From Desulfobacula sp. (GTDB taxonomy: Bacteria; Desulfobacterota; Desulfobacteria; Desulfobacterales; Desulfobacteraceae): a DNA stretch of 64,000 nt. Shown in pieces: positions 5,328-33,257 of the stretch. The notes beneath the pieces were generated by a model, which saw only the letters and a program-made list of their open reading frames with translations, was not told where the DNA came from and searched no databases. The position numbers and the translations under genes are program-made. The stretch is from the NCBI GenBank assembly GCA_018645325.1, contig JABGOU010000006.1, positions 1 through 64,000 of the forward strand, read 5' to 3'. The stretch's first letter is position 1. Every line of letters begins with the position of its first letter.

Positions 5328-5433
5328 GTGATTATTCAGCTCTTACGCTTGAACCCGCCCTGTCTGATGGATATTTGTGTTCGATGCTAAACGCTTAACC
5401 TCCTTCAAATATCCATCAGACAGGGCTTTGGGG
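5328..5433. repeat. 105-bp hairpin repeat, copy A
   Basis: The core is a perfect 21-bp inverted repeat (arms 5357-5377 and 5406-5426, beginning GCCCTGTCTGATGG) around a 28-base loop. The whole 106-bp unit recurs in opposite orientation at 23399-23503 with only scattered differences, including flanks beyond the hairpin. There is no T-run, so it is less a classical terminator than a small dispersed or MITE-like element. It begins right after the activator stop and reaches 18 bp into the 3' end of the minus-strand methyltransferase, whose last residues PQSPV and stop codon are encoded by the repeat. Confidence 0.9.
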
Positions 5434-6849
5434 ATATAGAAACCGCTCTTCCACCCCCTTGTTCTTTAGATATGCAACAAGTTCCGATTGAACATCTCCG
5501 GGAAGCTGAGGTTTCACATACTCCATCAGCATTTTGGATTTTTTTTGTTCAATCTTTTCAAAAATCGCTGAATCTATATTTTCATACACCTTTGGCCCTT
5601 TTATTCCAATATCCGGGCTCCAGATCTCTTGTCGACACAGTTTGGCCGTATGTGCCGAAGTCATATACTCGCCGCCCACGCCAACATCGTGGATCACATC
5701 AAGTGCCAGGGTTTCATCGTCAACCCTGACATCCTCATGAATACGCTTCACCATACCCATGAGTTCGAGGTCAATGATAAATTTATCAAATGACATACAA
5801 TTAAAACTGTCAAGAATACCAGCACTGTGGATGATATAATTGATGTTTTCTTGAATGCATGTCAATAGAATCATCATACTTTCATACCCGCTTTGGACGG
5901 ATACCTTTTTTGCATCGCTTGACGCACCACCACCACGACAGGGCAAGCCATAGTTTCTTGCCAGTTTTGAAGCAAATTTGAGACACAGCGCGTGTTCAGG
6001 ATTTCCAACAACATAGGCACCAGAACGCATGTCTCCTGCAGTTGACTGACATCCGTAGACAACTGGTGTACCCGGCCTTACCATTTGTGTAATAGCTATA
6101 CCTGCAAGTGTTTCTGCATTACTCAATGCGATGAGGCCGGCCAGGGTTATGGGACCTGTGAACCCGGCTGAGGCACCCGGCGTAATGATAACGGGCTGGC
6201 CATGGGAAGAATAGGCAAGAATCGTATCAAGAGCGGTTTGATCCATTCGCAAAGGCGTCAGCGTGTTGACAATGGTCATGATTCTGGGTTTGCTTATCAG
6301 CTCGCTTTGGCTGCCAAACAAAATTTTAACCATATCAAGGGTCATGTCAACCTGACTTTTTCTTCCCTCTATGCCAAAGATAAATTTATCCGACAGGGTC
6401 ATGATATGGTAAAGCATTACAAGATGATTATTTTGAGGACTTATATCACTGGGCTCAACAAGAATCCCCCCGTTTACCTTAAACTTGTCGCTCTGATGCA
6501 CAAGCTTTGCAAATTCAATATAATCCTTTAAGAGCGCCCGTCTGACCTTCCCGTCTCTTTCCAGAATATTGGGAGCACCATAGCCGGGTGCAAATTCAAT
6601 GTGTTTCACACCACCTGAATCGCCGACAATAAAATCATGGGCTGGATTCCTGGCATACACCTTAAAATGATCCTTTGCTTTTCCCACCCAGTCCAGGATC
6701 TGATTCTCTGTAAAGAATGCTGTTTCTCCTTCAACTCTTACACCGTTTTCTTTCAAAAGATTCAAAATTTCCGGGTGATGGAAACCCATTCCTGTCCTGT
6801 TCAAGATCTTCATTGATGCATCATGAATTTTATTTATCTTTTCATTCAT
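5416..6849 (-). CDS. MttB-family (trimethylamine methyltransferase-like) corrinoid methyltransferase 1
   Basis: The 477-residue protein belongs to the MttB/COG5598 family, TIM-barrel enzymes that move a methyl group from a quaternary or tertiary amine to a cognate corrinoid protein. Typical blocks are the N-terminal helix IHDASMKILNRTGMGFHHPE, the barrel stretch NTLTPLRMDQTALDT, and the glycine-rich GLPCRGGGASSDAKKV. There is no in-frame amber codon, so it is a non-pyrrolysine member, the group that contains demethylases of glycine betaine, proline betaine, carnitine and gamma-butyrobetaine. It is co-transcribed behind the racemase-like gene (24-bp gap) from a sigma-54 promoter. Its extreme C-terminus is supplied by a dispersed repeat and may differ from relatives. 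No corrinoid protein lies in this operon. Confidence 0.9.
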   Translation of the reverse strand: MNEKINKIHDASMKILNRTGMGFHHPEILNLLKENGVRVEGETAFFTENQILDWVGKAKDHFKVYARNPAHDFIVGDSGGVKHIEFAPGYGAPNILERDGKVRRALLKDYIEFAKLVHQSDKFKVNGGILVEPSDISPQNNHLVMLYHIMTLSDKFIFGIEGRKSQVDMTLDMVKILFGSQSELISKPRIMTIVNTLTPLRMDQTALDTILAYSSHGQPVIITPGASAGFTGPITLAGLIALSNAETLAGIAITQMVRPGTPVVYGCQSTAGDMRSGAYVVGNPEHALCLKFASKLARNYGLPCRGGGASSDAKKVSVQSGYESMMILLTCIQENINYIIHSAGILDSFNCMSFDKFIIDLELMGMVKRIHEDVRVDDETLALDVIHDVGVGGEYMTSAHTAKLCRQEIWSPDIGIKGPKVYENIDSAIFEKIEQKKSKMLMEYVKPQLPGDVQSELVAYLKNKGVEERFLYPQSPV

Positions 6850-6873
6850 TGGATTCTCGCTTTAACTATTTTG

Positions 6874-7644
6874 TTACATATAACCATAAAATTGTTTGCG
6901 GACTACGGCTGAATGTACCCAGTCAATCAGCGTGGAAAAATCAAACACTGGTAATTTTATTTCTTTTTGAATTGCCCATGCATGGCTTGGAAAAAGCGTA
7001 CACTCTAATAAAAAAGCACCAATGTCCGGGTTTTTTGTGACAAGATCTTTTGCCAGACCGATCAGGCCCTGTTCCAGCTTATAGGTATTATAATGCCCAA
7101 CGCCGGACAGTATCTTTTTCATTTCCGGAAGCTCCTCAGCTCCGGCAACAACCAGTCGAGAAGGATCATGAATTCCGCAATTTGCTAATACAGGTGCTGA
7201 GTTTAAAACTTTACCATTTGCACAGAGAACACCGATTTTCTGTTTAGGTCTGAGCGAGCTTAGAATCATGGGGACCTGCATTAAGCTGGAAAAAAAACAA
7301 GGGGTATGAAGTTTTTCAACCACCTGTGGCAGGTAATTTGCAAAGTACCCACAGGCGCCAATGATCGCCCGGCACCCCTGCTGTTCCAGATACAGACCCG
7401 CATCCACAAGCTGGGATATAACATCCTGATCAAGTTTTGGAGATACCACTGACTCAACTGAAGCCGCATGAATACCATGAAACAAAACAGGATATTTAAA
7501 TGTCTGGGCATTCTCTACACTTCCCGGTGGAAAACTATATCCAGCCTGGCCGAATAAGATAATTCCGATTGCAACGCCACCCAGTATCTGTCCGTCGTTT
7601 GTGTTAAATTCTTCATCGGTTACAGCTTGTTGATAGGGATTCAT
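6874..7644 (-). CDS. Asp/Glu racemase-superfamily protein
   Basis: This 256-residue protein has two pseudo-symmetric halves, each with a candidate catalytic cysteine (IIGACGYF in the first and LLECTLFP in the second), as in the cofactor-independent Asp/Glu/hydantoin racemase and maleate isomerase superfamily. The start at 7644 is chosen because AAAAGGAGG lies five bases upstream; an in-frame TTG further out at 7662 falls inside that ribosome site. It is the first gene of the minus-strand operon with methyltransferase 1 and has its own sigma-54 promoter. The substrate is unknown. Hydantoin racemase is worth noting because a HyuA-type protein is encoded in the divergent operon. Confidence 0.75.
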   Translation of the reverse strand: MNPYQQAVTDEEFNTNDGQILGGVAIGIILFGQAGYSFPPGSVENAQTFKYPVLFHGIHAASVESVVSPKLDQDVISQLVDAGLYLEQQGCRAIIGACGYFANYLPQVVEKLHTPCFFSSLMQVPMILSSLRPKQKIGVLCANGKVLNSAPVLANCGIHDPSRLVVAGAEELPEMKKILSGVGHYNTYKLEQGLIGLAKDLVTKNPDIGAFLLECTLFPSHAWAIQKEIKLPVFDFSTLIDWVHSAVVRKQFYGYM

Positions 7645-7701
7645 AAGACCTCCTTTTGTCAATTTATGGCATTTTATTCACAAAACATTCAGTATGTATA
7701 A

Positions 7702-7717
7702 AGCAAAACCTATGCCA
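7702..7717 (-). promoter_or_regulatory. Sigma-54 promoter of the racemase/MttB-1 operon
   Basis: On the minus strand the sequence reads TGGCATAGGTTTTGCT, with GG and GC separated by exactly ten bases. It matches the -24/-12 consensus TGGCACG-N4-TTGC closely. It lies about 58 bases upstream of the start codon at 7644. It diverges from the second sigma-54 promoter at 8141. Confidence 0.8.
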
Positions 7718-8140: not shown

Positions 8141-8156
8141 TGGTATAAGAGTTGCT
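8141..8156 (+). promoter_or_regulatory. Sigma-54 promoter of the methyltransferase operon
   Basis: TGGTATAAGAGTTGCT has the GG-N10-GC spacing required for sigma-54 and ends in a good TTGC -12 element. It lies 64 bases before the ATG at 8220 and should drive the six closely spaced genes from 8220 to 15544. Confidence 0.8.
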
Positions 8157-8219
8157 TATTACTAATTGTTTATTAACAAAAAGCCATAAACAACAAAAAT
8201 TTTGATCAGGAGGACTAAA

Positions 8220-9632
8220 ATGGAACCTAAACTAAAAATATTGAGTGACCGGGAGATGTTGGATATAGACCAGGCATCCCGTGCCCTGTTGTGGGAAGTC
8301 GGCACCCTCGCGGAAAATGAAGAGGCCATGGATCTGTTTGAAAAGGCAGGCGCAAAGGTTGATCGAAAAAAACAATTGGTGAAAATTCCTGATCATGTCA
8401 TTAATGAAGCCCTGGCAATGTGCTCTTCCTGTGTTCGCCTGTACGACCGCAACGGTGGAGAGCCTCTTATTATAGGTGGGGACCATGTTTATTATGGAAC
8501 GGTTGGAATCGCCACCAATGTATTGGATTTTGAAACAAATGAATACCGCCAGGTGGTTTGTGATGATTTAAGGGATATTGTTCGCCTGTCAGATGTACTT
8601 GATCCTCCTGATTTTATATTGGTTCCTGCAACACCTACTGATGTGCCCGCCTCTATTGTTGATGTAATAGAAACAAAAATATTATTGACCAATACAAAAA
8701 AGCATTTTATTGCTGAAGCTCAGAACAGAGAAAATTGTTTAAAAAATATTGAAATGGCTGTGGAAGTGGCCGGCAGTCTTGAAGCGCTTCAAGAAAGACC
8801 TTTCTTTTCCACGCTAGTGACCTTAAGCAGCCCCCTGCACTTTAGAAATGATGGAGTAGAGTTGATTGTTGAGTGTGCAAAAAAAGGCCTGCCTCTTTTT
8901 ATCGAATCCGGTCCCATGTGCGGCGGGACATCTCCTGCTACCCTTGCCTCAACTCTGGTCATGGCCAATGCTGAATTATTGAGCAGCTTTGTCCTTGCAA
9001 AGGCAGTTAACCCTGCTGTTCCCCTTATTTATGCCAGCTGGGCAAGAATCCTTGATATGCGGGCGGCTACATGCTCCCATGGCGGTCCGGAATTTGGAAT
9101 GCTGCGCATCGGCACCACCCAGATGGCAAAGTATTATGGGCTTCCCTCCGGGGGCGGAGGCATTCTTGCCGATACCAAGTCCATTGATGTTCAGCTGGGA
9201 ATGGAAAAAATGGGAACCGGGCTTTTACCTGCCCTTGCCGACACTAATATGGTTGTGGGAATGGGACTTTTTGCAGACGAGAATGCCATCAGCCTTGAAA
9301 CCCTGGTGATTGACTGTGAAATTGCCGGATGGATAAAAAAGGTGAAAAAAGGCATTGAGGTGAATGACAGAACATTAGACTTGACCGTATTTAAGGAAGT
9401 CGGGCCTGGTGGTGATTTTATAAGAGCCAAACATACCCGGGAAAACTTTAAAAAGGAAATGTTTTTGCCCAAGGTTATGGATCGAGGTTTTCTGGCCCTG
9501 GATAAAGATCCTGAAGAAAAAAACATGCGCACAAGAGCAAGAAATTATTTTTCAAAAATGATGGAAACATATACTCCCCCGGAATTACCCGAAGATATTG
9601 ATGCTAAATTGGATGCCATAATTAACAGATAA
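8220..9632 (+). CDS. MttB-family corrinoid methyltransferase 2
   Basis: The 470-residue protein is a non-pyrrolysine MttB homologue of full length. Family blocks include AKAGAKVDRKKQLVKIP-like N-terminal sequence (seen as EKAGAKVDRKKQ), TLSSPLHFRNDGVEL, SGPMCGGTSPATLA and GLPSGGGGILADTKS. It is closer in layout to methyltransferase 3 (31705-33120) than to methyltransferase 1. The ATG at 8220 follows CAGGAGG by five to six bases; the upstream in-frame TTG at 8202 precedes that site and is not used. It is the first gene of the operon with the corrinoid protein and methyltetrahydrofolate transferase, so it is probably the substrate-specific methylamine or betaine demethylase of the system. Confidence 0.93.
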   Translation: MEPKLKILSDREMLDIDQASRALLWEVGTLAENEEAMDLFEKAGAKVDRKKQLVKIPDHVINEALAMCSSCVRLYDRNGGEPLIIGGDHVYYGTVGIATNVLDFETNEYRQVVCDDLRDIVRLSDVLDPPDFILVPATPTDVPASIVDVIETKILLTNTKKHFIAEAQNRENCLKNIEMAVEVAGSLEALQERPFFSTLVTLSSPLHFRNDGVELIVECAKKGLPLFIESGPMCGGTSPATLASTLVMANAELLSSFVLAKAVNPAVPLIYASWARILDMRAATCSHGGPEFGMLRIGTTQMAKYYGLPSGGGGILADTKSIDVQLGMEKMGTGLLPALADTNMVVGMGLFADENAISLETLVIDCEIAGWIKKVKKGIEVNDRTLDLTVFKEVGPGGDFIRAKHTRENFKKEMFLPKVMDRGFLALDKDPEEKNMRTRARNYFSKMMETYTPPELPEDIDAKLDAIINR

Positions 9633-9651
9633 TGTATCAGGAGACAATAGA

Positions 9652-10302
9652 ATGAATACAGACGAATATTTAAACAAAATAATTGAGAGCGTAATAGACC
9701 AGGATGAAGCAATGGTTGGAAAAAGCGTTGAAGAGGCATTAAACGCTGATATCGATCCCATGGTTATCATTAACGATGGCCTCACTGAGAGTCTGAAAAA
9801 AGTTGGTGACCTCTTTGCAGAGGAGATCCTTTTTCTACCTGAACTGATTGGATGTGGCGAAATAGTAACCAATGTCATGAAAAAAATTGAAGATAAACTC
9901 AAGGGAGATGATTCGATTACAAAGAAAGGACTCATGCTGATTGCAACGGTTAAGGGTGATGTCCATGATATCGGTAAAAATCTTGTGGTATTACTTATGG
10001 GTGCTTCAGGCTATGATGTTGTAGATCTTGGCAAAGATGTGCCTGCAAACACCATTGTGGAAAAAATAAATGAGCTCAACCCTGACATCGTTGCCTTATC
10101 TGCACTCTTATCCACCACTATGCCGGGCCAGAAGAATACAATTCAGGCCATTGAGGAAGCAGGTATCCGCAAAAAAATTAAAATCATGGTGGGCGGGGCA
10201 CCCGTTACCCGGGCATGGGCTGAAGAAATCGGTGCGGATGGTTATGCAGAAGATGCCTCTACTGCCGTTGTGGAAGCCGATCGTATTATGGGTATCAGTT
10301 AA
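9652..10302 (+). CDS. Methyl-carrying corrinoid (B12-binding) protein, MttC/MtbC type
   Basis: The 216-residue protein has the standard two-part build: an N-terminal helical cap domain (about 1-90) and a Rossmann-like B12 domain (about 92-216). The cobalamin ligand motif is DVHDIGKN at 103-110, with His105 as the lower cobalt ligand, followed by VDLGKDVPANTIV, ALSALLSTTM and VGGAPVTRAWAEEIGADGY. It accepts a methyl group from an MttB-type enzyme and passes it to the methyltransferase encoded next. Only one such protein is present for three MttB homologues in the window. Nineteen bases separate it from methyltransferase 2, with a GGAG site before the ATG. Confidence 0.95.
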   Translation: MNTDEYLNKIIESVIDQDEAMVGKSVEEALNADIDPMVIINDGLTESLKKVGDLFAEEILFLPELIGCGEIVTNVMKKIEDKLKGDDSITKKGLMLIATVKGDVHDIGKNLVVLLMGASGYDVVDLGKDVPANTIVEKINELNPDIVALSALLSTTMPGQKNTIQAIEEAGIRKKIKIMVGGAPVTRAWAEEIGADGYAEDASTAVVEADRIMGIS

Positions 10303-10340
10303 TATTATCTATAGGCAACAATCCATGGAGGGTTCACAAG

Positions 10341-11138
10341 ATGTATATTGTTGGAGAGCTTATCAATGCGAGTCGTAAGTCCATAGGGGAGGCCATAAAA
10401 GCCAAAGATGTAATGGCCGTCCAGAAAATCGCAAAGGCCCAGGAAGAGGCGGGCGCTGATTATATCGATGTTAATGCAGGAATTTTTGTGGGCAAGGAAC
10501 CTGAATATTTAAAATGGCTGGTAAAAACAGTACAGGAAGCTGTGGATCTGCCCTGCACCCTGGACAGCCCGGATCCAAAAGCCATTGAAGCCGCGTTGGA
10601 TGTGCACAAGGGAACTCCAATGATCAATTCGATCTCTTTAGAAAAAGAACGATATGACGGTCTTATGCCGATCCTTATAGGTTCTGATTTAAAAGTTGTG
10701 GCCTTGTGCATGAGCGATGAGGGAATGCCTGAAACCATGGATGATCGAATGAAAATAGCTGATTTTCTTGTAAATGCATTGGTAAAAAACGGTGTGAAAA
10801 CAGAAAATATTTTTGTAGATCCTCTGGTACAGCCCTTATCTGTTAATAATAGTTTTGGCATGGAATTTATCAACACCGTAGAAAAAATTCATTCTACTTT
10901 CAAAGATATTCATACGATATGCGGACTTTCCAATATTTCTTATGGTCTGCCAAACAGACAATTTTTAAACCAGACATTCATGTCTATGGCAATTTCAAAA
11001 GGCCTGGATGGTGCCATCATGAATCCTCTGGATAAAAGGATGATGGCAAGTATCATTGCAGCAGAAGCTCTGGCCGGGCATGACCGGTATTGCATGAAAT
11101 TTCTGAAAGCGCATAGAAAAGGCATTTTTATTATATAG
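10341..11138 (+). CDS. Methyltetrahydrofolate:corrinoid methyltransferase (pterin-binding family)
   Basis: This 265-residue TIM-barrel protein has the pterin-binding signatures GELINASRKS at the N-terminus, ADYIDVNAG, LDSPDPKAIEAAL, NSISLEKERY and the late FVDPLVQPLS and CGLSNISYGLPNR stretches. MtgA, MtvA and AcsE/MetH-type domains belong to this family; it would take the methyl group from the corrinoid protein to tetrahydrofolate, feeding the Wood-Ljungdahl pathway. A GGAGGG site lies ten bases before the ATG. It follows the corrinoid protein directly, the classical three-component order (demethylase, corrinoid protein, pterin transferase). Confidence 0.93.
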   Translation: MYIVGELINASRKSIGEAIKAKDVMAVQKIAKAQEEAGADYIDVNAGIFVGKEPEYLKWLVKTVQEAVDLPCTLDSPDPKAIEAALDVHKGTPMINSISLEKERYDGLMPILIGSDLKVVALCMSDEGMPETMDDRMKIADFLVNALVKNGVKTENIFVDPLVQPLSVNNSFGMEFINTVEKIHSTFKDIHTICGLSNISYGLPNRQFLNQTFMSMAISKGLDGAIMNPLDKRMMASIIAAEALAGHDRYCMKFLKAHRKGIFII

Positions 11139-11168
11139 TACAGGAACTTAACAAAAAGGAAATTATAG

Positions 11169-13187
11169 GTGAGTCTTTCTTTAGGAGTCGATACAGGCGG
11201 TACGTATACGGATGCGGTTCTTGTAGATCGTACCACCAAAGAAATTGTGTCTGCGGCCAAAGCATTAACAACAAGAAAAAATTTGTTCCTGGGAATTTTT
11301 TCTGCAATTGACTCGTGTCTCCACGACGTTTTAGGAAAATTTTCTCCTGAAGATATCAGCATGGTCTGCCTTTCAACCACCCTGGCTACCAATGCAATCA
11401 CAGAGGGGTATGGCGCTACGATTTGTAAGCTTCTTATTGGATATAACGAACCATTGCTGCGCAATCAGGGTTTTTTGGAAGAAATGGCTTCTGATGATAT
11501 TGTCTGGCTTACCGGTGGTCATGATGTCCAGGGCAACGAAGTTACGTCGCTGGATGAGGAAACGGCCAAAAAAGAGATACTGATGAGACGTAACAGCGTA
11601 GAAGCCTTTGCTATATCCGGGTATTTTGGAATAAGAAATCCTGACCATGAATTGCGTATCAAAAAACTGGTGAAAAAATTAACAAATTTGCCTGTTACCT
11701 GTGCCCACGAATTAACCAGCCGCCTGAATTCTGTAAACAGAGCCATCTCAGCAGGTCACAATGCCAGGCTCATTCCGCTTTTAAAGGATCTTATTTTAGA
11801 TATTGAACAAGCGCTTGAGCGGTTAAATATTTCTGCACCTTTAATGATTGTGAAAGGAGACGGGGCAATTGTACCTGCCCAATGGGCGAGTGAAAGGCCC
11901 ATTGAAACCATTCTTTCCGGGCCGGCGGCAAGCAGTGTCGGGGCCTATCATCTGACAGGATGCAAGGATGTCTGGGTGGCGGATATGGGAGGGACAACTA
12001 CGGATATAGCACTGCTTATAAATGGGCGCCCTGCCATCAATGAAGAAGGCGCCTATATCAGCCACAGAAGAACCATGGTGGAGGCAGTAGATATTCATAC
12101 CGTGGGAATTGGCGGAGACAGCCTGATTGAGATCGATACCCAGGGTGATATCCTGCTGGGTCCCTGTCGTGCAATTCCTCTGTGTCTTCTAGCTAACGAT
12201 TATCCAGGAGTATTAGCAAATCTGAAAGCCCAGGTTTTAGAAAAAAATTGGGAAAAAAATGCAGGACAATTTGTCATAACAGGGCGCTCTCAACTCAATC
12301 ACCTCCACCATGAAGAACGCGAACTGCTATACCGCATGGAAAAAGAGCCATTACCGTTATTGGCCGCTACCCGGGATCGAAAAAAATTCGTCACAAAAAG
12401 ACGTATTGAACAACTTGAAAAGAAGTGCCTGCTGCACCGTTCAGCATTTACACCCACAGATGCGCTGCATGTTCTGGGACAAATGGATTTATGGAATAAA
12501 GATGCATCATATCTGGGAGCAGAACTGCTTGCAAACCAGCTGGGTATGGATGTGACAGACTTTTGTAAGGCCCTGGTAAAGAAATTGTCGGACAGCCTGG
12601 CAAAAGAAATTTTAAGCAAGGTTATGGAGGATAAAACAGGATTGCCGCAATGGGGAAAAGAACCCACTGCATCTGCGCTTCTCAAGCGCGCTTTAACAGA
12701 TCAGGATGATAGAGAATTTTCCTGTAGTTTTAAATTAAAAAAACCTTTGGTGGCAATAGGAGCTCCGGTTCAAGCGTATATGCCGACCGTTGCATCAAGT
12801 TTGAATACCCAGTTGATCATTCCGGAATATGCCCATGTGGCAAATGCATTCGGTGCTGCCACTGCCGGCATTATCCAGCGTGGCCAGGCAGTTATCCGAA
12901 TGATGGAGGGCGGCCTGATCTATCGCGTACACCTGCCGGATAAGATTGAAGATTTTCCAGATTTTGAAGCGGCAAAAATATATGCAGAAAAATATATGAG
13001 GGCTTATATTATTGAGTTGGCAAAAAAAGCCGGTGCCAAAGAGATCAAAGTAGAAGCGGCTTTCAGTGATCATGCCGGCAAGTTGCCCGCAGGGTGGCCC
13101 CAGGAAATATTTTTAGATACTGAGCTTTTTGTAACGGCTTATGGGGTTCCAGATATGAATGATGCGGTCATGGAGAAAAAAAATTAA
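11169..13187 (+). CDS. Hydantoinase/oxoprolinase (HyuA)-type ATPase
   Basis: The 672-residue protein has the Hydant_A_N and Hydantoinase_A arrangement. The phosphate-1 loop is GVDTGGTYTDAVLVDR near the start, and the phosphate-2 loop VADMGGTTTDIALL lies near residue 275, both typical of the ASKHA ATPase fold; LSTTLATNAI is another family block. Known relatives open hydantoin or 5-oxoproline rings with ATP, usually with a HyuB subunit, which is absent here. The GTG start follows AAAAGGAAA. No RamA/RACo-type corrinoid activase occurs in the operon, and those are also ASKHA ATPases, so this protein may fill that role; this is speculation. N-methylhydantoin (creatinine) hydrolysis is the alternative. 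Confidence 0.85.
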   Translation: MSLSLGVDTGGTYTDAVLVDRTTKEIVSAAKALTTRKNLFLGIFSAIDSCLHDVLGKFSPEDISMVCLSTTLATNAITEGYGATICKLLIGYNEPLLRNQGFLEEMASDDIVWLTGGHDVQGNEVTSLDEETAKKEILMRRNSVEAFAISGYFGIRNPDHELRIKKLVKKLTNLPVTCAHELTSRLNSVNRAISAGHNARLIPLLKDLILDIEQALERLNISAPLMIVKGDGAIVPAQWASERPIETILSGPAASSVGAYHLTGCKDVWVADMGGTTTDIALLINGRPAINEEGAYISHRRTMVEAVDIHTVGIGGDSLIEIDTQGDILLGPCRAIPLCLLANDYPGVLANLKAQVLEKNWEKNAGQFVITGRSQLNHLHHEERELLYRMEKEPLPLLAATRDRKKFVTKRRIEQLEKKCLLHRSAFTPTDALHVLGQMDLWNKDASYLGAELLANQLGMDVTDFCKALVKKLSDSLAKEILSKVMEDKTGLPQWGKEPTASALLKRALTDQDDREFSCSFKLKKPLVAIGAPVQAYMPTVASSLNTQLIIPEYAHVANAFGAATAGIIQRGQAVIRMMEGGLIYRVHLPDKIEDFPDFEAAKIYAEKYMRAYIIELAKKAGAKEIKVEAAFSDHAGKLPAGWPQEIFLDTELFVTAYGVPDMNDAVMEKKN

Positions 13188-13244
13188 GATGGCGTTTTTT
13201 AAGCACTTTACAAAAAATAGAACAGATACACACAAGGAGGCTGC

Positions 13245-14435: not shown

Positions 14436-14491
14436 GTCAGGACCTGTTTCAATTTCAACAAACAAGATCAGAGTTTTAAAAAGGAAATTCA

Positions 14492-17630: not shown

Positions 17631-17647
17631 TTGAAAACATTGTAATA

Positions 17648-23674: not shown

Positions 23675-23690
23675 TGGCATGCACTTTGCG
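23675..23690 (+). promoter_or_regulatory. Sigma-54 promoter of the glycyl radical enzyme operon
   Basis: TGGCATGCACTTTGCG is almost the full consensus TGGCACG-N4-TTGC, with exactly ten bases between GG and GC. It lies 94 bases before the ATG at 23784. Confidence 0.87.
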
Positions 23691-26189: not shown

Positions 26190-26245
26190 TGCTGATTTTA
26201 GGGTTTAATCGTCCTTATACCATCAGTTTAACGAGGTAAAGAATC

Positions 26246-27166
26246 ATGTCCGCAGCCGCCAGCGTTCTGCGTATTGAAAAATTATCCAGCTTTGATGGGG
26301 ATGGTCTTAGAACCGTTGTTTTCCTCAAAGGATGCCCTTTGAGATGTCAATGGTGTTCCACGCCCGAGTCCCACGAGATGAAAACTGATTTTGGAAACGA
26401 CAAAAAAAAATGCACAGGCTGTTTTGAGTGTGTGAACACCTGCCCTGAACAGGCCATTAACTATGACATAAAAAAAGAACAATTTACCACAAACATGGAA
26501 AGCTGTTCCGACTGCAAAAAGTGTATTGATGTCTGTCTTGAGGGCTCACGTATTTTTTGGGGATACACGGCAACAGCAGATGAAATTTTTAAAGAGGTGC
26601 AAAAAGATTCTATTTTTTATTATCACTCCGGCGGCGGGGTCACCATCAGCGGGGGCGAACCTTTCCTGCAAAAAAATTTTGTAAGGGAATTGCTGAAAAA
26701 ATGCGTGTTTCAGGGAGTGAATACAGCCATTGAGACCTGCGGCCACGTCCTGTGGGAAAACATCAAATTCGTTCTTCCCTTTGTGGACACCCTTTTTTAT
26801 GACTTAAAACACATGGAAACAAATCGCCATAAAAAAATTACAGGAGTAGGCAATGGCTTGATTTTGGAAAATCTAAAAAAAATAGATGCCGGACCACAAA
26901 ACTTTCCCATTATTGTCCGGATTCCTGTCATCCCGACGGTGAATGATGAAGACGGCAATATCAGAGATCTGGGTGAGTTCTGCCGAAATTTAAAAAAATT
27001 AAAAGAAATTCAGCTTCTCCCCTACCACCGTTTCGGAATCGAAACCTATAGAAAACTTTCCATGCCATATGATTTGGAAACCCTTTGTTCCCCGGAAAAA
27101 GAAAAGATGGAATATAAAGCCGCCCTTTTGCAGGATATGGGATTGACGGTAAAAGTCGGCGGATAA
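26246..27166 (+). CDS. Glycyl radical enzyme activase (radical SAM)
   Basis: The 306-residue protein carries the radical SAM cysteines Cys30, Cys34 and Cys37 (CPLRCQWC) and two ferredoxin-type [4Fe-4S] clusters inserted after them (Cys56/59/62/66 and Cys87/90/93/97), the build of activases for dehydratase-type glycyl radical enzymes. VTISGGEPFLQ is the SAM-contact GGE motif. It makes the glycyl radical on Gly769 of the upstream enzyme. It is 56 bases downstream with a GAGGTAAAG site and must be co-transcribed from the sigma-54 promoter. Confidence 0.95.
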   Translation: MSAAASVLRIEKLSSFDGDGLRTVVFLKGCPLRCQWCSTPESHEMKTDFGNDKKKCTGCFECVNTCPEQAINYDIKKEQFTTNMESCSDCKKCIDVCLEGSRIFWGYTATADEIFKEVQKDSIFYYHSGGGVTISGGEPFLQKNFVRELLKKCVFQGVNTAIETCGHVLWENIKFVLPFVDTLFYDLKHMETNRHKKITGVGNGLILENLKKIDAGPQNFPIIVRIPVIPTVNDEDGNIRDLGEFCRNLKKLKEIQLLPYHRFGIETYRKLSMPYDLETLCSPEKEKMEYKAALLQDMGLTVKVGG

Positions 27167-27405: not shown

Positions 27406-27466
27406 CAGACACTGAAATTATAAACGCAAAAACAGCTGCTTTTTTCATACCAGGGGAAAATTTTTG

Positions 27467-28645
27467 ATGAGAAATGATCCATATGATGTAATCATTGTCG
27501 GGGGCGGTGTCATGGGGTGCTGCAGCGCCTACTATCTTTTAAGCCTGCAGGACAATCTTCGTATCGCAATTATTGAACGGGATCCCTCTTATGAAAGAGC
27601 CTCAACAACACTTTGCAACGGCAACATAAGACACCAGTTTGCCTTGAAAGAAAATATCCAGATCTCCCAGTACACATTTGATGTGTTGTCCCGCTTTGGT
27701 CAAACCATGGGTGTGGGCCAAAGCAAGCCCGATGTCGGGTTTGTGCCCACGGGAAATCTGTTCATTGTTGATGCCAAAGGTCAGAATGCTGCAAAAAAAG
27801 GTCTTGCCGCACAAAAAGAACAGGGCTGTGATGTGAACTGGTTTTCTGCCGAGCAGCTGTCAAAGCAATATGATATGTTTGAATTGAACGGATACAAAGG
27901 AGGGACGTTCTGTGCCAAAGACGGGAAATTGGACCCCTACTCAATGCTCATGGCGTACAAGGCGAAAATCAGACAAATGGGCGGAAACTTCATCAAAGAT
28001 GAGGCCGTCTCTTTTGTCAGCTATAACAATTGTGCCCAAGGCGTAACCCTTGCATCTGGCACGACATTAAAATCTGAGATCATCATCAATTGTGCCGGCG
28101 CATGGGGACCTGAACTGGCAGAAACAGCGGGAATAAAAATGCCCGTATTGCCCACCAGACGACAGGTCTTTGTATTTAAAACGCGTCTCAAGAACGCGAA
28201 CAAACTGCCGGGCGTATTTTTACCATCTGGTCTCTACTTTCAGCCGGAAAGTCATGATTTAATGATCCTGGGAAGATCCATGGATACTGATCCTGTGGGA
28301 TTCAATTTCAACTGGGAAGACAGCCGTTTCATGGAAGATCTTTGGCCTGAACTGGCAAAATTCGTTCCGGCTTTTGAAGCCATTAAAATGATTCGCGGAT
28401 GGGCTGGTCTCTACGCTGTCAGTACCATGGACAACAACCCCTTTATCGGTCAATGGCCCGAGTTAAAAGGTCTTTATCTTGTCAACGGGTTTTCAGGTCA
28501 TGGCCTTCAACAAGGCCCGGCCGTTGGTCGGTATGTCGCTGAGATGGTTCTTGATCAACCTTTTTCACTGGATTTATCCATCTTCAGTCCTGAACGTATT
28601 CTGGATGGAAAACCCATTTGTGAGGGTGACTGGGCAATCGTATAA
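27467..28645 (+). CDS. FAD-dependent amine oxidoreductase (DAO family), copy 2
   Basis: The 392-residue protein parallels the gene at 13245 throughout: VIIVGGGVMGCCSAYYLL, AIIERDPSYERASTT, INCAGAWGPELAE, and NGFSGHGLQQGPAVGR. A D-amino acid, sarcosine or N-methylated amino acid oxidation is expected from the family. The ATG at 27467 is chosen over the adjacent TTG because AGGGGA lies at a suitable distance. It is followed after 42 bases by AOR 2, so an aldehyde or imine product might be handed on. Copy 1 is separated from its AOR by the racemase and binding-protein genes. Confidence 0.85.
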   Translation: MRNDPYDVIIVGGGVMGCCSAYYLLSLQDNLRIAIIERDPSYERASTTLCNGNIRHQFALKENIQISQYTFDVLSRFGQTMGVGQSKPDVGFVPTGNLFIVDAKGQNAAKKGLAAQKEQGCDVNWFSAEQLSKQYDMFELNGYKGGTFCAKDGKLDPYSMLMAYKAKIRQMGGNFIKDEAVSFVSYNNCAQGVTLASGTTLKSEIIINCAGAWGPELAETAGIKMPVLPTRRQVFVFKTRLKNANKLPGVFLPSGLYFQPESHDLMILGRSMDTDPVGFNFNWEDSRFMEDLWPELAKFVPAFEAIKMIRGWAGLYAVSTMDNNPFIGQWPELKGLYLVNGFSGHGLQQGPAVGRYVAEMVLDQPFSLDLSIFSPERILDGKPICEGDWAIV

Positions 28646-28687
28646 AACAAGGCATCGTTCTTGGGAAATAAAAAAATGGAGGCAATT

Positions 28688-30517
28688 ATGCACGGATGGA
28701 TGGGAAAGGTACTCAGGGTCGACCTGACAGAGGGAGTGCTGAAAGAGGAACGCTTAGACCCTGATGTTGCCCGGAAATACCTGGGCGGCCGAGGCCTGGG
28801 TATCTACTATTTAAACAAGGAAGTTGATCCTGGCTGTGATCCCCTGGGAAAAGAAAATCTCATGGTTATGGCAACAGGTCCTTTAACCGGAACCAAGGCG
28901 CCAACTGGTGCCCGGTATATGGTCACTACCAAATCACCTTTAACCGGAGCCATCACCTGCTCAAATTCAGGAGGTCAATTCCCAGCTCACTTGAAACGCA
29001 CGGGATTTGATGCCTTATTGATTTTTGGTGCTGCAAAAAAACCGGTTTATCTTTTTATTGACAACGAAACATGTGAATTACGTTCTGCAGATCATTTATG
29101 GGGTAAAACCACCCATGAAACCACAGCACAATTACTTTCTGAAACCCATCCAAAGGCCAAAGTTGCCTGCATAGGTCCGGCAGCGGAAAAAGGTGTTTTG
29201 TATGCGACCATCATGAATGATAAGGATCGAGCCGCCGGCCGCTCAGGTGTGGGAACGGTCATGGGTGCAAAAAGACTAAAAGCCATCGTTGTCAGAGGTG
29301 GGCAAAAACCCGCCATTGCAGATGCTGACAAATTTAAAGACGTTCAAGACCGAGTCATGGGTCAGTTTAGGGAAACCCATAAAGACACCCCGCCCCCTTT
29401 AAGGGTAAACGGCACTGCAAATACCGTGGCCATAGCCCAGGCCTTTGGTGTACTGCCCACCAAAAATTTTCAGCAGGGCACATTTGATAAATGGGAAAAC
29501 ATCCAGGCAAGTACCCTGCGCGATACCCTGGTGGTTGGAAACAAAGCGTGTTACTCCTGCCCCATCGGGTGCGGGAGGCTTACCAAAGTGACCCAGCCCG
29601 AATTTGCAGGTGAAGGAGAAGGGCCGGAATATGAAACTATCTATTCCATGGGCTCCAATTGTGCCATTGACAATTTATCCGCCGTCACCAAGGCCAACTA
29701 TATCTGCAATGAACTGGGTCTGGACACCATCACAATGGGGTCTACCGTGGCCTGTGCCATGGAGTTGTATGAAAGAGGTTATATCACCCGAAAAGAAGTG
29801 GGCTTTCCATTAAAGTGGGGAGATGGCCATGCATTGGTTAAATTAACAAAAATGACCGGTGAAATGAAAGGATTTGGCAGGGATCTCGCTCTGGGAAGTT
29901 ACCGCCTGGCCCAAAAATACGGTCACCCTGAACTGGCCATGGTTTCCAAAAAACAGGAATTTGCCGGCTATGACCCCAGGGCTGAACAGGGCATGGGATT
30001 GGCCTATGCCACATCGCCAATTGGTGCATCCCATATGCGCGGCGATCCAGCTTATTTTGAAATTCTTGGAATACCAACCCTGCTGGACCCCCTTGAATGG
30101 AAGGGACGCGCCAAGTGGGTAAAAGTCTGCCAGGATCTGTCGGCCATCATTGATGCCTCTGGTATTTGTATATTTTTCACAATGCGTGCCCTTGTGGAAC
30201 AGAAGATGGAGATGCGCCCATTTGGTATAAGGGACTATCTTGAAGCCGTTACTGGTTTTGATTATACCATAGAAGAACTGGCTCAGGTTGCAGAGCGAAT
30301 CATCAATGCTGAGAGATTGTTTCTCGTACGGGCAGGTTTAAATCGAAAGTCTGATACCCTGCCTCATAGATTAACCCACGAACCCATTCCAGATGGTCCG
30401 GGTAAAGGGTATGTCTGCCATTTGGAGGAGATGCTGGATGAATACTACAAAGAGCAGCAATGGACAGTCAATGGAGTGCCTAGTGATAAAAAACTTAAAC
30501 AACTGGGCCTGACCTGA
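28688..30517 (+). CDS. Tungsten-type aldehyde:ferredoxin oxidoreductase, copy 2
   Basis: The 609-residue protein matches AOR 1 closely: the first 300 residues align without a gap, with cluster ligands again at Cys288, Cys291 and Cys295 (CYSCPIGC) and a late cysteine in SGICIFF. The start at 28688 (MHGWMGK) is preferred because GGAGG lies five bases upstream and the paralogue begins at the same residue; ATG 28676 and an upstream TTG are alternatives. It is in one transcription unit with the FAD oxidoreductase and the MoaD-like gene. The two AORs may differ in aldehyde preference. Confidence 0.94.
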   Translation: MHGWMGKVLRVDLTEGVLKEERLDPDVARKYLGGRGLGIYYLNKEVDPGCDPLGKENLMVMATGPLTGTKAPTGARYMVTTKSPLTGAITCSNSGGQFPAHLKRTGFDALLIFGAAKKPVYLFIDNETCELRSADHLWGKTTHETTAQLLSETHPKAKVACIGPAAEKGVLYATIMNDKDRAAGRSGVGTVMGAKRLKAIVVRGGQKPAIADADKFKDVQDRVMGQFRETHKDTPPPLRVNGTANTVAIAQAFGVLPTKNFQQGTFDKWENIQASTLRDTLVVGNKACYSCPIGCGRLTKVTQPEFAGEGEGPEYETIYSMGSNCAIDNLSAVTKANYICNELGLDTITMGSTVACAMELYERGYITRKEVGFPLKWGDGHALVKLTKMTGEMKGFGRDLALGSYRLAQKYGHPELAMVSKKQEFAGYDPRAEQGMGLAYATSPIGASHMRGDPAYFEILGIPTLLDPLEWKGRAKWVKVCQDLSAIIDASGICIFFTMRALVEQKMEMRPFGIRDYLEAVTGFDYTIEELAQVAERIINAERLFLVRAGLNRKSDTLPHRLTHEPIPDGPGKGYVCHLEEMLDEYYKEQQWTVNGVPSDKKLKQLGLT

Positions 30518-30563
30518 TTTATCTTTGTTTCATTTGCGGTCCTAAACGAACAGGAAAAATGAA

Positions 30564-30827: not shown

Positions 30828-30907
30828 TGATTCCTGTTCTGCCGATACCCAAAAGTTTTACCTTGATTGCTTACAAGCGTTGGCCCTGCCCAAGAGTTTG
30901 GCAATTC

Positions 30908-30936
30908 TTGACATAGGATTAACTTTAGGATACTAT
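30908..30936 (+). promoter_or_regulatory. Promoter of the GntR-type regulator gene
   Basis: TTGACA, a 17-base spacer and TACTAT lie about 50 bases before the ATG at 30986. It lacks the TATCA-N-TGATA palindrome seen in the other island promoters. Confidence 0.55.
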
Positions 30937-30985
30937 TTTTTTTTGAATAAAATTCAACAATAATTGAGATGCTAAAAAGGTGTTT

Positions 30986-31627
30986 ATGAAGTCTAAAGAT
31001 TCTTCACTTTATCAAAAATTTTTAGAAAGAATTTTATTTTTTGAATTTGAACCCGGGGAATTACTAAATGAAAAAAGTCTGGCTGAGGAATTTAAAGTCA
31101 GCCGTACTCCTGTTCGAGAAGTTCTTAACCGCTTGCAATGGGAAGGCCTTGTCAGGATCATCCCACGTTCAGGATCAATCGTCACTGATATAGAGTTTCA
31201 AAAAATTCTTTACGTTTTTCAAATTCGTCTGGAACACGAAGCCATTATTGGCCGATTAGCCACGGAAAATGTAACGGACAACCAGTTAAAGCAAATGGCG
31301 GAAATAAAAAAAGAATGCCTGAATCTTTTCCAGAATCATACTCCAAAAGAATTGATGAAAATCGATTTTCATTTTCGCGATGTGCTGTATGAAGCAACAG
31401 GAAATCCAATTTTAGGGGATATCTCAAGGCAGCTTTATAACCTTACTGTTCGTCTTTGGTATATGCGCCTGAAAAATAAAAATACCTGGAAGGATGAAGT
31501 TCAGCTAATGGCTGATGAGATCGAAAGTACAATTGATATGCTTAAATCAGGAGATACTGAACAAGTTGCCGGCCTGAGGCAGTCCTGGTTAAGAAAAAAT
31601 ATCGAACGTATGAAAAGTCAATTTTAA
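30986..31627 (+). CDS. GntR-family regulator with FCD domain (FadR subfamily)
   Basis: The 213-residue protein has an N-terminal winged helix (FEPGELLNEKSLAEEFKVSRTPVREVLNRLQ) and a C-terminal all-helical FCD ligand domain with the metal-site histidine pattern DFHFRDVLYEATGN. FadR-type GntR proteins bind short palindromes and respond to acids or amino acid-derived ligands. The ATG at 30986 follows AAAAGG; a GTG six bases earlier overlaps that site. As the only non-sigma-54 regulator in the island, it is the natural candidate for the palindromes at 15.7, 27.4 and 33.4 kb. It is convergent with methyltransferase 3. Confidence 0.92.
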   Translation: MKSKDSSLYQKFLERILFFEFEPGELLNEKSLAEEFKVSRTPVREVLNRLQWEGLVRIIPRSGSIVTDIEFQKILYVFQIRLEHEAIIGRLATENVTDNQLKQMAEIKKECLNLFQNHTPKELMKIDFHFRDVLYEATGNPILGDISRQLYNLTVRLWYMRLKNKNTWKDEVQLMADEIESTIDMLKSGDTEQVAGLRQSWLRKNIERMKSQF

Positions 31628-31704
31628 ATATCTAAAATAGCATTTAAAAAGTTCACAACATATCTTTCAAAGATATCAAGTGTACTGAATATTACGCATC
31701 CATT

Positions 31705-33120
31705 TTATGCGTTTATTATTTCATCCATCTTTATTTTAATATCATACGGTAAACCAGGTTTTGAATAATGTGCCATATATTCTTCCATCAAATTTTGCGT
31801 TCGCATTCTAACATCTTTGGAACCATTGTTTTGAAATGTTCCAAGCATGCTCCGGTCACTAACCTTTGGAATGAAATGTTCGTTCTTAAAATTTTGATAT
31901 GTATGTGGATTTGTAAGATATTCTGATTTAATGGATTCCTCTTTTATAATATCATAAGCCAGTTGATCATGTCCTATAGTTATACCGGATTTAAGCCGCT
32001 TTATGATTTGTACAATTTCATTATCCATAATCAAAGACTCACAACTCATAACATTCATTTGTGACAGAAGTCCCATCCCAAAAAGGATATCCAGACCTCC
32101 TAAAGCGGGAATAAATGAGGTCATAAGTTTTTCCCAACCATATTGCGAGTCAATTGTATTGGAATCGGATAGTAACGCCCCCCCTCCGGAAGGTAAATTA
32201 TAAAACCGTGCAAGCTGAGCAATAGCAAGCCTCATAAGTGCAAATTCAGGCGTTGCAACAGTACAGGTGCTATACTTCATATCAAAGATCCTACACCAAC
32301 TCGCATATATTGCCGGAGCTTCCGGATTAATTAATTTGCTGTAGATGATATGGGACAAAATTTCAGCGTTTGCCTGTGACAACTCACCTGCAAGGGTTAC
32401 AGGCGATGTTGCCCCTCCCATACAACCGGCTGTAACAAGGTATGGCACTCCGGCCTTTGCCGCACTCCTGATTACTTCGGCTGCATCTTTTCTCATGGTC
32501 AATGGAGAAAATGTATTAATATTAAAAATCAAGTGCGGAGTTTTTTTTAATTCATCCATTCCTCCCATAGTCTCGGCCGCCATGGCAATGATTTTATCAG
32601 CATGTTTTTCGCAATAAGCATGGGTATGAATAGGTTTTCGAGTATTTGTCAAAAGTGCTTTGGCCTGATATAAATCACCTTTTTCACTTGGATCGTCAAT
32701 GGGCTGACCCGGAGGATGAACCAAATCGACACCGTCCAGAACATCGGCCAATTGGATAATCTCTTTCAAATCTGTATTCTTCACGCTACGAACTTTTTGT
32801 GTTTTCCAGTCAATTAAAAAAGGTGCATATCCAATGGTTGCAAAATATTGGTTACCGCCCCCCAGAGTCATTGAGCGGACACCGTCTGTATTGTATAAAG
32901 AAAGGTTAGGATTTGCCTTGGCCAGTGCATCTTTAGTTAAATATTGTGGAATAAATACTCTTTTTATATTCCAGTCTACTTTTGCCCCGGCTTTCTCAAA
33001 TATCTCAAGTGCTGTATCTTCTTGAATATGAATTCCGATTTTTTCCAAAATTTCCAATGACTGCAAGTGAATCTCATGGATTTCATTGTCACTAAGAACA
33101 CAAATAGTATTTAGCTTCAA
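31705..33120 (-). CDS. MttB-family corrinoid methyltransferase 3
   Basis: The 471-residue protein is a full-length, uninterrupted MttB homologue, with LEIFEKAGAKVDW, NTFSPLTMRKDAAEV, AGCMGGATSPVTLAGE and NLPSGGGALLSDSNT. It resembles methyltransferase 2 in length and in the block IYASWCRIFDMKYSTC. It starts with TTG at 33120, which overlaps the TGA stop of the small EtfB-like ORF, and an AAAAGGAG site lies seven bases upstream. It is likely a demethylase for a different amine that shares the corrinoid protein at 9652. It reads convergently towards the GntR gene. Confidence 0.9.
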   Translation of the reverse strand: MKLNTICVLSDNEIHEIHLQSLEILEKIGIHIQEDTALEIFEKAGAKVDWNIKRVFIPQYLTKDALAKANPNLSLYNTDGVRSMTLGGGNQYFATIGYAPFLIDWKTQKVRSVKNTDLKEIIQLADVLDGVDLVHPPGQPIDDPSEKGDLYQAKALLTNTRKPIHTHAYCEKHADKIIAMAAETMGGMDELKKTPHLIFNINTFSPLTMRKDAAEVIRSAAKAGVPYLVTAGCMGGATSPVTLAGELSQANAEILSHIIYSKLINPEAPAIYASWCRIFDMKYSTCTVATPEFALMRLAIAQLARFYNLPSGGGALLSDSNTIDSQYGWEKLMTSFIPALGGLDILFGMGLLSQMNVMSCESLIMDNEIVQIIKRLKSGITIGHDQLAYDIIKEESIKSEYLTNPHTYQNFKNEHFIPKVSDRSMLGTFQNNGSKDVRMRTQNLMEEYMAHYSKPGLPYDIKIKMDEIINA

Positions 33121-33257
33121 TTCATTTCTCCTTTTACTTTTTGGATTTTACCAAGAATACCAGGCAAGACCTCATGCCAATCTTTTGTAATAGTAAAATC
33201 AGGGTTTTTTAAAGTCGGTGCATCTGGTATCTGTTTGACCGAAACAAGGATTTGCAT
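33117..33257 (-). CDS. 46-residue EtfB N-terminus-like small protein, coupled to MttB-3
   Basis: The ORF begins with ATG at 33257 after AAAGGA and ends in TGA overlapping the TTG start of methyltransferase 3. Its first 16 residues, MQILVSVKQIPDAPTL, match the start of electron-transfer flavoprotein beta subunits, but nothing beyond that resembles EtfB. It may be the remnant of an etfB gene cut by a fusion event, or a short translated leader used to couple translation. The good ribosome site and the overlap argue that it is translated. Confidence 0.6.
   Translation of the reverse strand: MQILVSVKQIPDAPTLKNPDFTITKDWHEVLPGILGKIQKVKGEMN

Follow-up and report, generated by a model that had tools for sequence, protein, structure and literature searches.

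An island in a Desulfobacula genome as a candidate anaerobic locus for the catabolism of hydroxyproline betaines

GENE CONTENT OF THE ISLAND

The window analysed here, positions 1-64000 (64 kb) of contig C114 in a draft Desulfobacula genome of 4.39 Mb and 90% completeness, contains an island of about 28 kb in which methyltransferases of the MttB family, a glycyl radical enzyme (GRE) and aconitase X (AcnX) are encoded side by side. The host is probably a sulphate reducer. An initial annotation of this DNA had listed three MttB homologues lacking pyrrolysine, a corrinoid protein, a methyl-tetrahydrofolate (methyl-THF):corrinoid methyltransferase, a proline racemase-family protein (ProR), both AcnX subunits, two amine oxidoreductases of the DAO family that use flavin adenine dinucleotide (FAD), a GRE with its activase, two aldehyde:ferredoxin oxidoreductases (AORs) and a binding protein, and had assigned them to the breakdown of proline- or hydroxyproline-type betaines. 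Pfam and NCBIfam profiles confirmed each of these families at or very near the position given. They also added a HyuA-like protein, a member of the Asp/Glu racemase family, two sigma-54 activators, a GntR regulator and an OCD gene.

The GRE gene occupies positions 23784-26189 of the plus strand, on which all genes of the island lie unless stated otherwise, and its radical SAM activase follows at 26246-27166 (TIGR02494, 320 bits, cut-off 174). Six consecutive genes extend over 8202-15544: MttB2 (8202-9632; PF06253, 267 bits), the corrinoid protein that would serve as methyl carrier (9652-10302; PF02310 and PF02607; TIGR02370, 201 bits, cut-off 215), the methyl-THF:corrinoid methyltransferase (10341-11138; NF005719, 351 bits, above its cut-off of 259), the HyuA/oxoprolinase-like protein (11169-13187; PF05378 and PF01968; 96 bits to the 5-oxoprolinase 6yra), the first DAO-family oxidoreductase, DAO1 (13245-14435; PF01266, 221 bits), and ProR (14492-15544; PF05544, 359 bits). 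Since the gaps between them measure merely 19-57 bases, these genes probably form one operon. On the opposite strand, MttB1 (5416-6849, minus; PF06253, 398 bits) lies downstream of a protein of the Asp/Glu racemase superfamily (6874-7662, minus; NF005679, 222 bits, cut-off 231; PF01177, 25 bits, cut-off 31), probably in a common operon.

Further along, a family-5 substrate-binding protein (SBP5; 15846-17630; PF00496, 259 bits), with a twin-arginine motif, SRREFLRTT, read by eye, precedes the first AOR (17898-19742) and the AcnX genes. Behind the activase are found DAO2 (27464-28645; PF01266, 199 bits), the second AOR (28661-30517; PF01314 and PF02730, as for the first), a GntR/FCD regulator (30980-31627; PF00392 and PF07729) and MttB3 (31705-33120, minus; PF06253, 320 bits).

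THE GLYCYL RADICAL ENZYME

Among solved structures, the island GRE is closest to 8id1 (994 bits, 54% identity), which bears the Protein Data Bank (PDB) title of an N-methyl-cis-4-hydroxy-L-proline dehydratase from Intestinibacter bartlettii, followed by 8iof (844 bits, 44% identity), titled an N-methyl-cis-4-hydroxy-D-proline dehydratase from Clostridium sp. FS41. The remaining 35 distinct solved GRE sequences score at most 634 bits, the value obtained with CutC (9f3w), and HypD (6vxc) reaches 480. The stretches MEQNAASYN and MFQNVC are common to the island GRE and 8id1, and 8iof carries MEQNASSYN and MTVQVC in their place. The core of the enzyme is intact, with GCVE at 438-441 and RVAGY at 766-770, and both PF02901 and PF01228 are matched. 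This ranking of relatives was obtained with phmmer; Foldseek runs were used for PDB titles and sequence identity only, their TM-scores being disregarded, and the AlphaFold models were poor (mean pLDDT 48 and pTM 0.37 for the GRE predicted from nine sequences, pLDDT 36 for the enolase of locus L012 described below).

The trans-4-hydroxyproline dehydratase HypD, to which the GRE had been compared at first, scores far lower. Against the HypD model NF043068 the island enzyme obtains 587 bits, under the cut-off of 1100, and the genome encodes a separate, true HypD on contig C79 which reaches 1243 bits and served as positive control. Identity amounts to 30% with HypD 6vxc and to 35.5% with the genome's own HypD. 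Nine HypD residues are described from mutants in a study of this enzyme (eLife 2020, PMC7077986): His160, Asp278, Ser334, Asp339, Phe340, Cys434, Glu436, Tyr450 and Thr645. Six of these are exchanged in the island GRE (His160 to Glu, Asp278 to Ala, Ser334 to Ala, Asp339 to Met, Tyr450 to Asp, Thr645 to Val), including four that contact the amine or carboxylate of the substrate (D278, S334, Y450 and T645), and Phe340, Cys434 and Glu436 are retained; the columns of Asp278, Ser334, Asp339 and Phe340 were read by eye from printed alignments. A HypD in this position would turn the island into a locus for free hydroxyprolines with the MttBs as incidental neighbours, an arrangement for which locus L067 offers a parallel, as it combines a HypD over the cut-off with AcnX, OCD and ProR and no MttB match (L066, where the corresponding GRE was not scanned, is alike). 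Given the low score, the missing substrate contacts and the true HypD elsewhere in the genome, this reading was rejected and is close to refuted.

A choline or betaine C-N lyase of the CutC kind, in a locus for an acyclic quaternary amine, has in its favour that CutC is the best NCBIfam model for the island GRE (TIGR04394, 681 bits) and that the Asp contacting the amine in HypD is missing from the pocket. The score nevertheless falls far under the cut-off of 1050, 8id1 and 8iof both outscore the best CutC chain, and the related locus L009 encodes a pyrroline-5-carboxylate (P5C) reductase over its cut-off. The CutC assignment was likewise set aside as very improbable.

Dehydration of an N-methylated 4-hydroxyproline is the most probable reaction of the GRE, although identities of 54% and 44% do not fix which stereoisomer is used. 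N-methyl-4-hydroxyproline is what remains once one methyl group leaves hydroxyproline betaine, and this compound provides the link between the GRE and the MttB proteins. Because the nearest solved enzymes are N-methyl-4-hydroxyproline dehydratases, one methyl group probably stays on the nitrogen when the ring is dehydrated, and the order proposed initially, in which the methyl groups are removed first and the ring is processed next, is probably wrong for the GRE branch. The chemistry is better stated as an incomplete demethylation, after which the N-methyl compound is dehydrated.

CONSERVED NEIGHBOURHOODS IN RELATIVES

A peptide-pattern scan for the GRE, over the contigs of one genome per species for 84,980 species, returned eight loci, comprising seven GREs with 83-84% identity to that of the island and one 27% relative. 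The seven close relatives originate from Desulfosarcinaceae, Desulfobacterales, Desulfotignum (two), Desulfobacteraceae, Desulfobacula and Desulfocicer vacuolatum, the latter represented by the cultured strain DSM 3385 (locus L014). Among 194 genomes of the order, two others carry a GRE at 57-63% identity: G033, whose locus L037 contains GRE, activase, MttB, AOR, an enolase closest to 2ps2 and a sarcosine-oxidase-alpha-like gene, and G145, where GRE, activase, SDR and AOR genes together with MttB and OpuA genes are distributed over two contig ends (L038 and L039). All 10 orthologue rows (the seven at 83-84%, L037 and the half genes of L038 and L039) match the island GRE at the HypD-contact columns that they cover.

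A relative of the sigma-54 activator and the activase adjoin the GRE in 7/7 close relatives. Its surroundings further include MttB in five of them (L009, L010, L011, L014, L015), an OpuA-type ABC transporter in four (L009, L011, L013, L014), a BCCT carrier in three (L009, L010, L015) and a protein of the P5C reductase family in two (L009, L010); in L009, the reductase (270 bits, cut-off 254) and the BCCT carrier (654 bits, cut-off 650) both exceed their NCBIfam cut-offs. Both AcnX subunits and an OCD gene lie near the GRE of L014, the OCD relative (39% identity) adjoining AcnX. The best matches of an enolase-superfamily gene near the GRE of L012 are 4e8g/4izg (459 bits) and 2pmq/4h2h (394 bits), which we take to be hydroxyproline-betaine epimerases (HpbD).

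These neighbourhoods were compared with those of 20 control GREs at 34-40% identity (L092-L111), chosen by hand from the upper part of the list and not at random, several entries, mostly short contigs, being skipped. By tblastn at E <= 1e-15, MttB was encountered near the GRE in 7/10 orthologue loci against 1/20 control loci (L099), an enrichment with a one-sided Fisher p of 4e-4 that is optimistic, the rows being related by descent. The count becomes 7/9 when L038 and L039 are taken as one genome, and the loci devoid of an MttB match are L012 and L013, on short contigs of 8.6 and 7.7 kb, and L038, where the GRE lies at a contig end. In four further loci with non-orthologous GREs, MttB was present once (L063, but not L040, L066 or L067). 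With the same threshold, BCCT or OpuAC was detected in 6/10 orthologue loci against 0/20 controls (p about 3.5e-4, computed by hand and only a guide, as rows are related); the transporter and P5C reductase queries were taken from L009 and L014, so that matches in those two rows are built in and the comparison of transporters is biased towards the orthologue loci. The MttB matches of L009 and L014, in contrast, had been obtained with the island's MttB1 as query. The OpuAC of L039 was seen by Pfam only and left out of this count. AORs occur in the orthologue loci L010, L037 and L038, and in one of the 20 controls (L096). Conserved co-occurrence, which the initial annotation had put forward as a check, is supported for the GRE-MttB pair, accompanied in several loci by betaine transporters or P5C reductase.

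MttB PROTEINS AND METHYL TRANSFER

The genome holds 28 matches to the MttB family (PF06253), six of which contain one in-frame TAG, and this suggests that it may use pyrrolysine alongside many non-pyrrolysine paralogues. The three island proteins belong to the latter kind, as initially annotated, with an in-frame stop in 0/3. A tree of 23 rows, to which the genome contributes 10 of its 28 matches, places MttB1 as sister to the MttBs of the five GRE operons L009, L010, L011, L014 and L015 (support 88/79), and the MttB1 group including own_C21 is supported at 100/99. Within the genome, the MttB of the GRE operon in L009 also has its closest match in MttB1, with 444 bits against 310 for the next. 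On this kinship, MttB1 is probably the MttB partner of the GRE. The MttBs of L037 and L039 branch elsewhere, which implies more than one origin for the MttB partner of the GRE. MttB2 and MttB3 share one branch (100/99) distant from MttB1.

The Asp/Glu-racemase-family gene that accompanies MttB1 recurs on the AcnX contigs L014, L061 and L063, and beside another GRE in L096.

ACONITASE X AND THE OCD-FAMILY PROTEIN

The AcnX large subunit (19994-21259; PF04412, 389 bits) has cluster cysteines of the type-II kind, and the small, or swivel, subunit (21169-21675; PF01989, 73 bits) probably starts later than 21169. The AcnX NCBIfam model, whose 555 positions hold both parts in one chain, gives 299 bits with the large and 77 bits with the small subunit, and its equivalog cut-off is not reached. 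In the aconitase X of A. tumefaciens, the nitrogen of the substrate is bound by Thr72 and Asp203, with Trp35 packed against the ring (PMC8184944). The equivalent of Asp203 is kept in 11/11 fetched large subunits that include the position, which falls outside three others, and Ser70 is kept in 12/12 small subunits, that of the island included. Cys occupies the position of type I Ser449 in 12/12 readable large subunits and, for this reason, does not mark the first of the sets described next.

The remaining pocket residues divide the small subunits into three sets. In the first (the island, L014, L060 and L061), Trp35 is replaced by Phe or Val and Thr72 by Gly, the island protein having Phe and Gly. 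Both residues are kept in the second (L063b, L064, L065, L066, L067 and L069), and Trp35 is kept with Thr72 changed to Ala in the third (L056 and L068). Members of the first set occur with GRE, OpuA and MttB in L014 and with BCCT relatives of about 31% nearby in L060; L061 is a short contig. In the second set, L067 and the same-genus L066 have the composition described above, and no match to HypD, OCD, ProR or MttB was obtained in L064 and L065. A strict rule whereby Thr72 is lost wherever MttB is near fails, as the residue is retained in L069 and L063b, where an MttB-like gene stands at a distance of about 6.5 and 6 kb, respectively.

The island AcnX, for which dehydration of cis-3-hydroxyproline had been considered at first, does not show the canonical pocket for that substrate. 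The pocket of the first set appears opened at the nitrogen and could fit an N-methylated 3-hydroxyproline, which constitutes the most novel and least certain part of our proposal. The OCD/mu-crystallin family protein (2461-3429), located outside the interval first delimited, is a candidate (N-methyl-)pyrroline-2-carboxylate reductase; it satisfies PF02423 (218 bits) and gives 227 bits with PRK06141, under the cut-off of 322.

Some of the comparison loci merit separate mention. L067 and L066, where GRE, AcnX, OCD and a proline-racemase-family gene with a Cys/Thr dyad occur together, look like a free-hydroxyproline counterpart of the island. The GRE of L066 (4489-6831, minus strand) has lost its catalytic Glu (GCVATT for GCVE) and scores 774 bits with the HypD model, under the cut-off, so a different reaction is possible. 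L063, a 9-kb contig (C196 of genome G167), carries HypD, an MttB-like gene with one in-frame stop and pieces of two AcnX kinds.

REGULATION AND DISTRIBUTION OF THE ISLAND

Two sigma-54-dependent activators are encoded in the stretch, one with PAS domains (3580-5325; PF00158 and PAS) and one for which PrdR is the best model (21811-23349; NF041552, 315 bits, the cut-off of 795 not being reached). Upstream regions of 250-280 bases, taken from 13 genes within the island or at its border, were scanned for -24/-12 sites, GG and GC being required, and three of them stand out. The site before the Asp/Glu racemase-MttB1 operon (7702-7717, minus strand) agrees with the consensus at 10/11 positions, lies at -40 and was equalled in 1/1000 shuffles; those before the MttB2 operon (8141-8156, plus, at -46) and the GRE (23675-23690, plus, at -94) agree at 9/11 and were each equalled in 2/1000 shuffles. 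The next-best region, upstream of DAO2, has 8/11 positions and was equalled in 32/1000. Three putative sites and two activators within the same stretch suggest one shared regulon.

The island is sparsely distributed. In five same-genus or same-family genomes of the sample, neither the GRE (E <= 1e-100) nor AcnX (E <= 1e-60) was found; AcnX reaches the latter threshold in 10/194 genomes of the order, host included, and in a phylum sample of 395 genomes the GRE is present at E <= 1e-240 in the host genome only. The far side of the island is flanked by an anthranilate-synthase-type gene, called TrpE (33691-35172). In the same-family genomes G092 and G035, the 15 kb or so preceding trpE contained no match to the metabolic genes of the island, the stretch in G092 holding one sigma-54-activator match; in the same-genus G192, trpE stands at the start of its contig. 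This absence beside trpE and in near relatives suggests a variable locus that was probably acquired.

Two other features of the window were recorded. A glutamate-synthase-domain protein (353-2011, minus) adjoins the island and could help to handle glutamate. Well outside it, at 47861-56729 (minus), a 956-residue FG-GAP repeat protein and two large hybrid histidine kinases are encoded near a periplasmic binding protein.

ProR AND THE COMPANIONS OF MttB

ProR has a Ser/Cys dyad (S90-G-G-N93 within MSGGN, and CPCGTG) which corresponds to the residue pattern of Ser/Cys 4-hydroxyproline 2-epimerases, a catalytic Ser followed by Asn at the third residue after it and a Cys on the opposite face. In a study of the family, one Ser/Cys member was a 4-hydroxyproline 2-epimerase and one Ser/Thr member a trans-3-hydroxyproline dehydratase (eLife 2014, PMC4113996). 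ProR remains below every NCBIfam cut-off, the best model being T3LHypDht, the trans-3-hydroxyproline dehydratase (319 bits, cut-off 550), and the 4-hydroxyproline epimerase PRK13971 giving 244 bits (cut-off 376). A 70% relative with the same dyad lies about 20 bases behind an MttB in L087, and the relatives in L066 and L067 carry Cys/Thr. On its dyad, ProR may be an epimerase rather than a dehydratase, and is a candidate 2-epimerase.

No HyuB partner of the HyuA-like protein was found among the open reading frames scanned. A HyuA-like protein stands near MttB in two places and could act either in ring opening or as a corrinoid-related ATPase.

PROPOSED PATHWAY AND ITS ALTERNATIVE

We propose, with reasonable though far from complete confidence, that the island serves to break down hydroxyproline betaines under anaerobic conditions. 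One methyl group would be shifted from the quaternary betaine to the corrinoid protein by MttB1 or a sister enzyme, and from there the methyl-THF transferase would hand it to tetrahydrofolate for oxidation, leaving N-methyl-hydroxyproline. The activated GRE would dehydrate the 4-hydroxy compounds to a product of the N-methyl-pyrroline-5-carboxylate or N-methyl-glutamate-semialdehyde type. P5C reductase would reduce this product in some relatives; in the island, an AOR may instead oxidise the open-chain aldehyde to N-methylglutamate, a replacement suggested by the occurrence of AORs in L010, L037 and L038 among the GRE-orthologue loci. A DAO flavoprotein might act next, taking off either the nitrogen or the last methyl group. 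Epimerisation at C2 by ProR would allow both L and D diastereomers to enter one route, and in a parallel branch AcnX and the OCD reductase would convert 3-hydroxy compounds to (N-methyl)proline. The GRE and the two MttB operons (Asp/Glu racemase-MttB1 and MttB2) would be switched on jointly by the sigma-54 activators. The gene content, the GRE subfamily, the kinship of MttB1, the conserved neighbourhoods and the sigma-54-type sites are computed results; every substrate, the order of reactions, the AOR and DAO steps, the role of the epimerase and the 3-hydroxy branch are what we infer from them.

In its most extended form, this proposal makes the island a full anaerobic pathway for the betaines of 3- and 4-hydroxyproline, whichever their configuration at C2, with an AcnX clade acting on N-methylated 3-hydroxyproline and an AOR that yields reduced ferredoxin from N-methyl-glutamate-semialdehyde. 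Taken as a whole, it is rather unlikely.

Several observations weigh against a hydroxyproline betaine locus. AcnX, ProR, OCD and the MttBs are all below NCBIfam equivalog cut-offs, and MttB1 is just 41-44% identical to the five MttBs of GRE operons and lies 17 kb away from the GRE. No BCCT carrier was found in the 90%-complete genome, OpuAC is not in the island (two over the cut-off are encoded elsewhere in the genome) and P5C reductase was not seen among the island genes scanned. Over the whole window the sigma-54 motif occurs at chance level, with 38 found and 37.7 expected, so that a site is informative through its position alone. A site of at least 9/11 precedes the GRE in just 2/7 relatives, L014 (11/11, 0/1000 shuffles) and L009 (9/11, 18/1000); L010, L011 and L013 have 7, 5 and 6 of 11, and the same scan returned no such site in L012 and L015. 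Finally, at 56-70 kb of contig C1, the genome contains a second cluster with relatives of MttB, AOR, DAO, HyuA and SBP5 (best matches 28-36%), from which GRE, AcnX and ProR matches are absent. An ABC ATPase relative was also noticed in the C1 cluster.

This second cluster lends itself to another explanation, in which two modules lie side by side: GRE, MttB1, AcnX and OCD for hydroxyproline betaines, and MttB2, corrinoid protein, methyl-THF transferase, HyuA, DAO, ProR, SBP5 and AOR for a methylated compound of a different kind, such as some other quaternary amine, cyclic or derived from an amino acid, with a ring that the HyuA-like protein would help to open. Such a division agrees with the distant tree branches of MttB1 and MttB2 and with locus L088, where relatives of MttB2 (58%), DAO1 (63%) and AOR (50%) are clustered and no GRE was matched; together, the clusters in C1 and L088 indicate that MttB, AOR, DAO, HyuA and SBP5 may be general companions. 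It is less easily reconciled with the position of ProR inside the MttB2 operon and of its 70% relative that immediately follows an MttB in L087, with the sigma-54-type sites common to both MttB operons and the GRE, or with the frequency of AORs in GRE-orthologue loci relative to the controls. We consider the two-module arrangement possible, if doubtful.

As for the initial proposal, the union of betaine demethylation and hydroxyproline chemistry in one locus draws support from the neighbourhoods, the kinship of the GRE and the sigma-54-type sites, and the idea of a betaine-plus-hydroxyproline locus appears well supported by these comparisons; its extension to a single pathway for all 28 kb is less certain in view of the C1 cluster.

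COMPARISON WITH KNOWN SYSTEMS

Plants and marine organisms use the betaines of proline and hydroxyproline as osmolytes, and the known route for growth on trans-4-hydroxyproline betaine is aerobic, with demethylation by an oxygenase that uses oxygen. To our knowledge, the oxygen-free consumption of hydroxyproline betaines is largely open, and we know of no characterised MttB for hydroxyproline betaine and of no ferredoxin-reducing, energy-conserving AOR step for hydroxyproline. If the proposed pathway is correct, sulphate reducers could exploit such betaines for their carbon skeleton as well as for the methyl group, and the AcnX clade would represent a new substrate class in the aconitase superfamily. 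The set conserved in the cultured Desulfocicer vacuolatum DSM 3385 makes anaerobic betaine use directly testable by growth and induction.

The structures 8id1 and 8iof presumably belong to the 2024 paper of Jiang et al. This paper, on GREs for two N-methyl-4-hydroxyproline isomers (Jiang et al. ACS Catal 2024 14:4407), appears in the reference list of PMC13319378. The N-methyl-hydroxyproline GRE reaction type is thus known since 2024, and its publication renders doubtful the earlier statement that a joint locus is not described. No paper naming both MttB and hydroxyproline was found in the literature searched, outside of which most subscription journals lie, so the link may already be published. 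The new parts, all inferred from the comparisons above, would be the AcnX set, the continuation through AOR and DAO, and the joint regulon.

The island GRE resembles the N-methyl-4-hydroxyproline dehydratases 8id1 and 8iof, its nearest solved relatives, in the shared pocket stretches and probably in the kind of reaction. It differs in its setting, as those enzymes come from Intestinibacter and Clostridium and the GRE described here shares its island with AcnX, OCD, ProR and AORs. With HypD it has in common that it is a dehydratase GRE with a Cys/Glu pair; unlike HypD, which acts on an unmethylated amino acid, it has the contact residues replaced, and the two are remote in sequence.

The island MttBs are similar to MtpB and MtgB, the demethylases of proline betaine and glycine betaine, in being non-pyrrolysine enzymes, and are here accompanied by a corrinoid protein and a methyl-THF transferase. 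MtpB is listed as a reference in PMC8318568, and the PDB title of 9yce is 'glycine betaine methyltransferase'. The island AcnX retains the general-base Ser70 and the amine-binding Asp203 of known aconitase X enzymes and consists of two subunits as in type II; it departs from them by Phe and Gly in place of Trp35 and Thr72 and by Cys where type I has Ser449.

PMC4113996 mentions that some organisms grow on trans-4-hydroxyproline betaine and cites the aerobic pathway (Zhao 2013 Nature; Kumar 2014 mBio). The proposed island route shares with that pathway the kind of substrate and, in the L012 relative, an HpbD-like enolase near the GRE. It differs in replacing the oxygen-dependent demethylation by corrinoid-based methyl transfer and a radical dehydratase.

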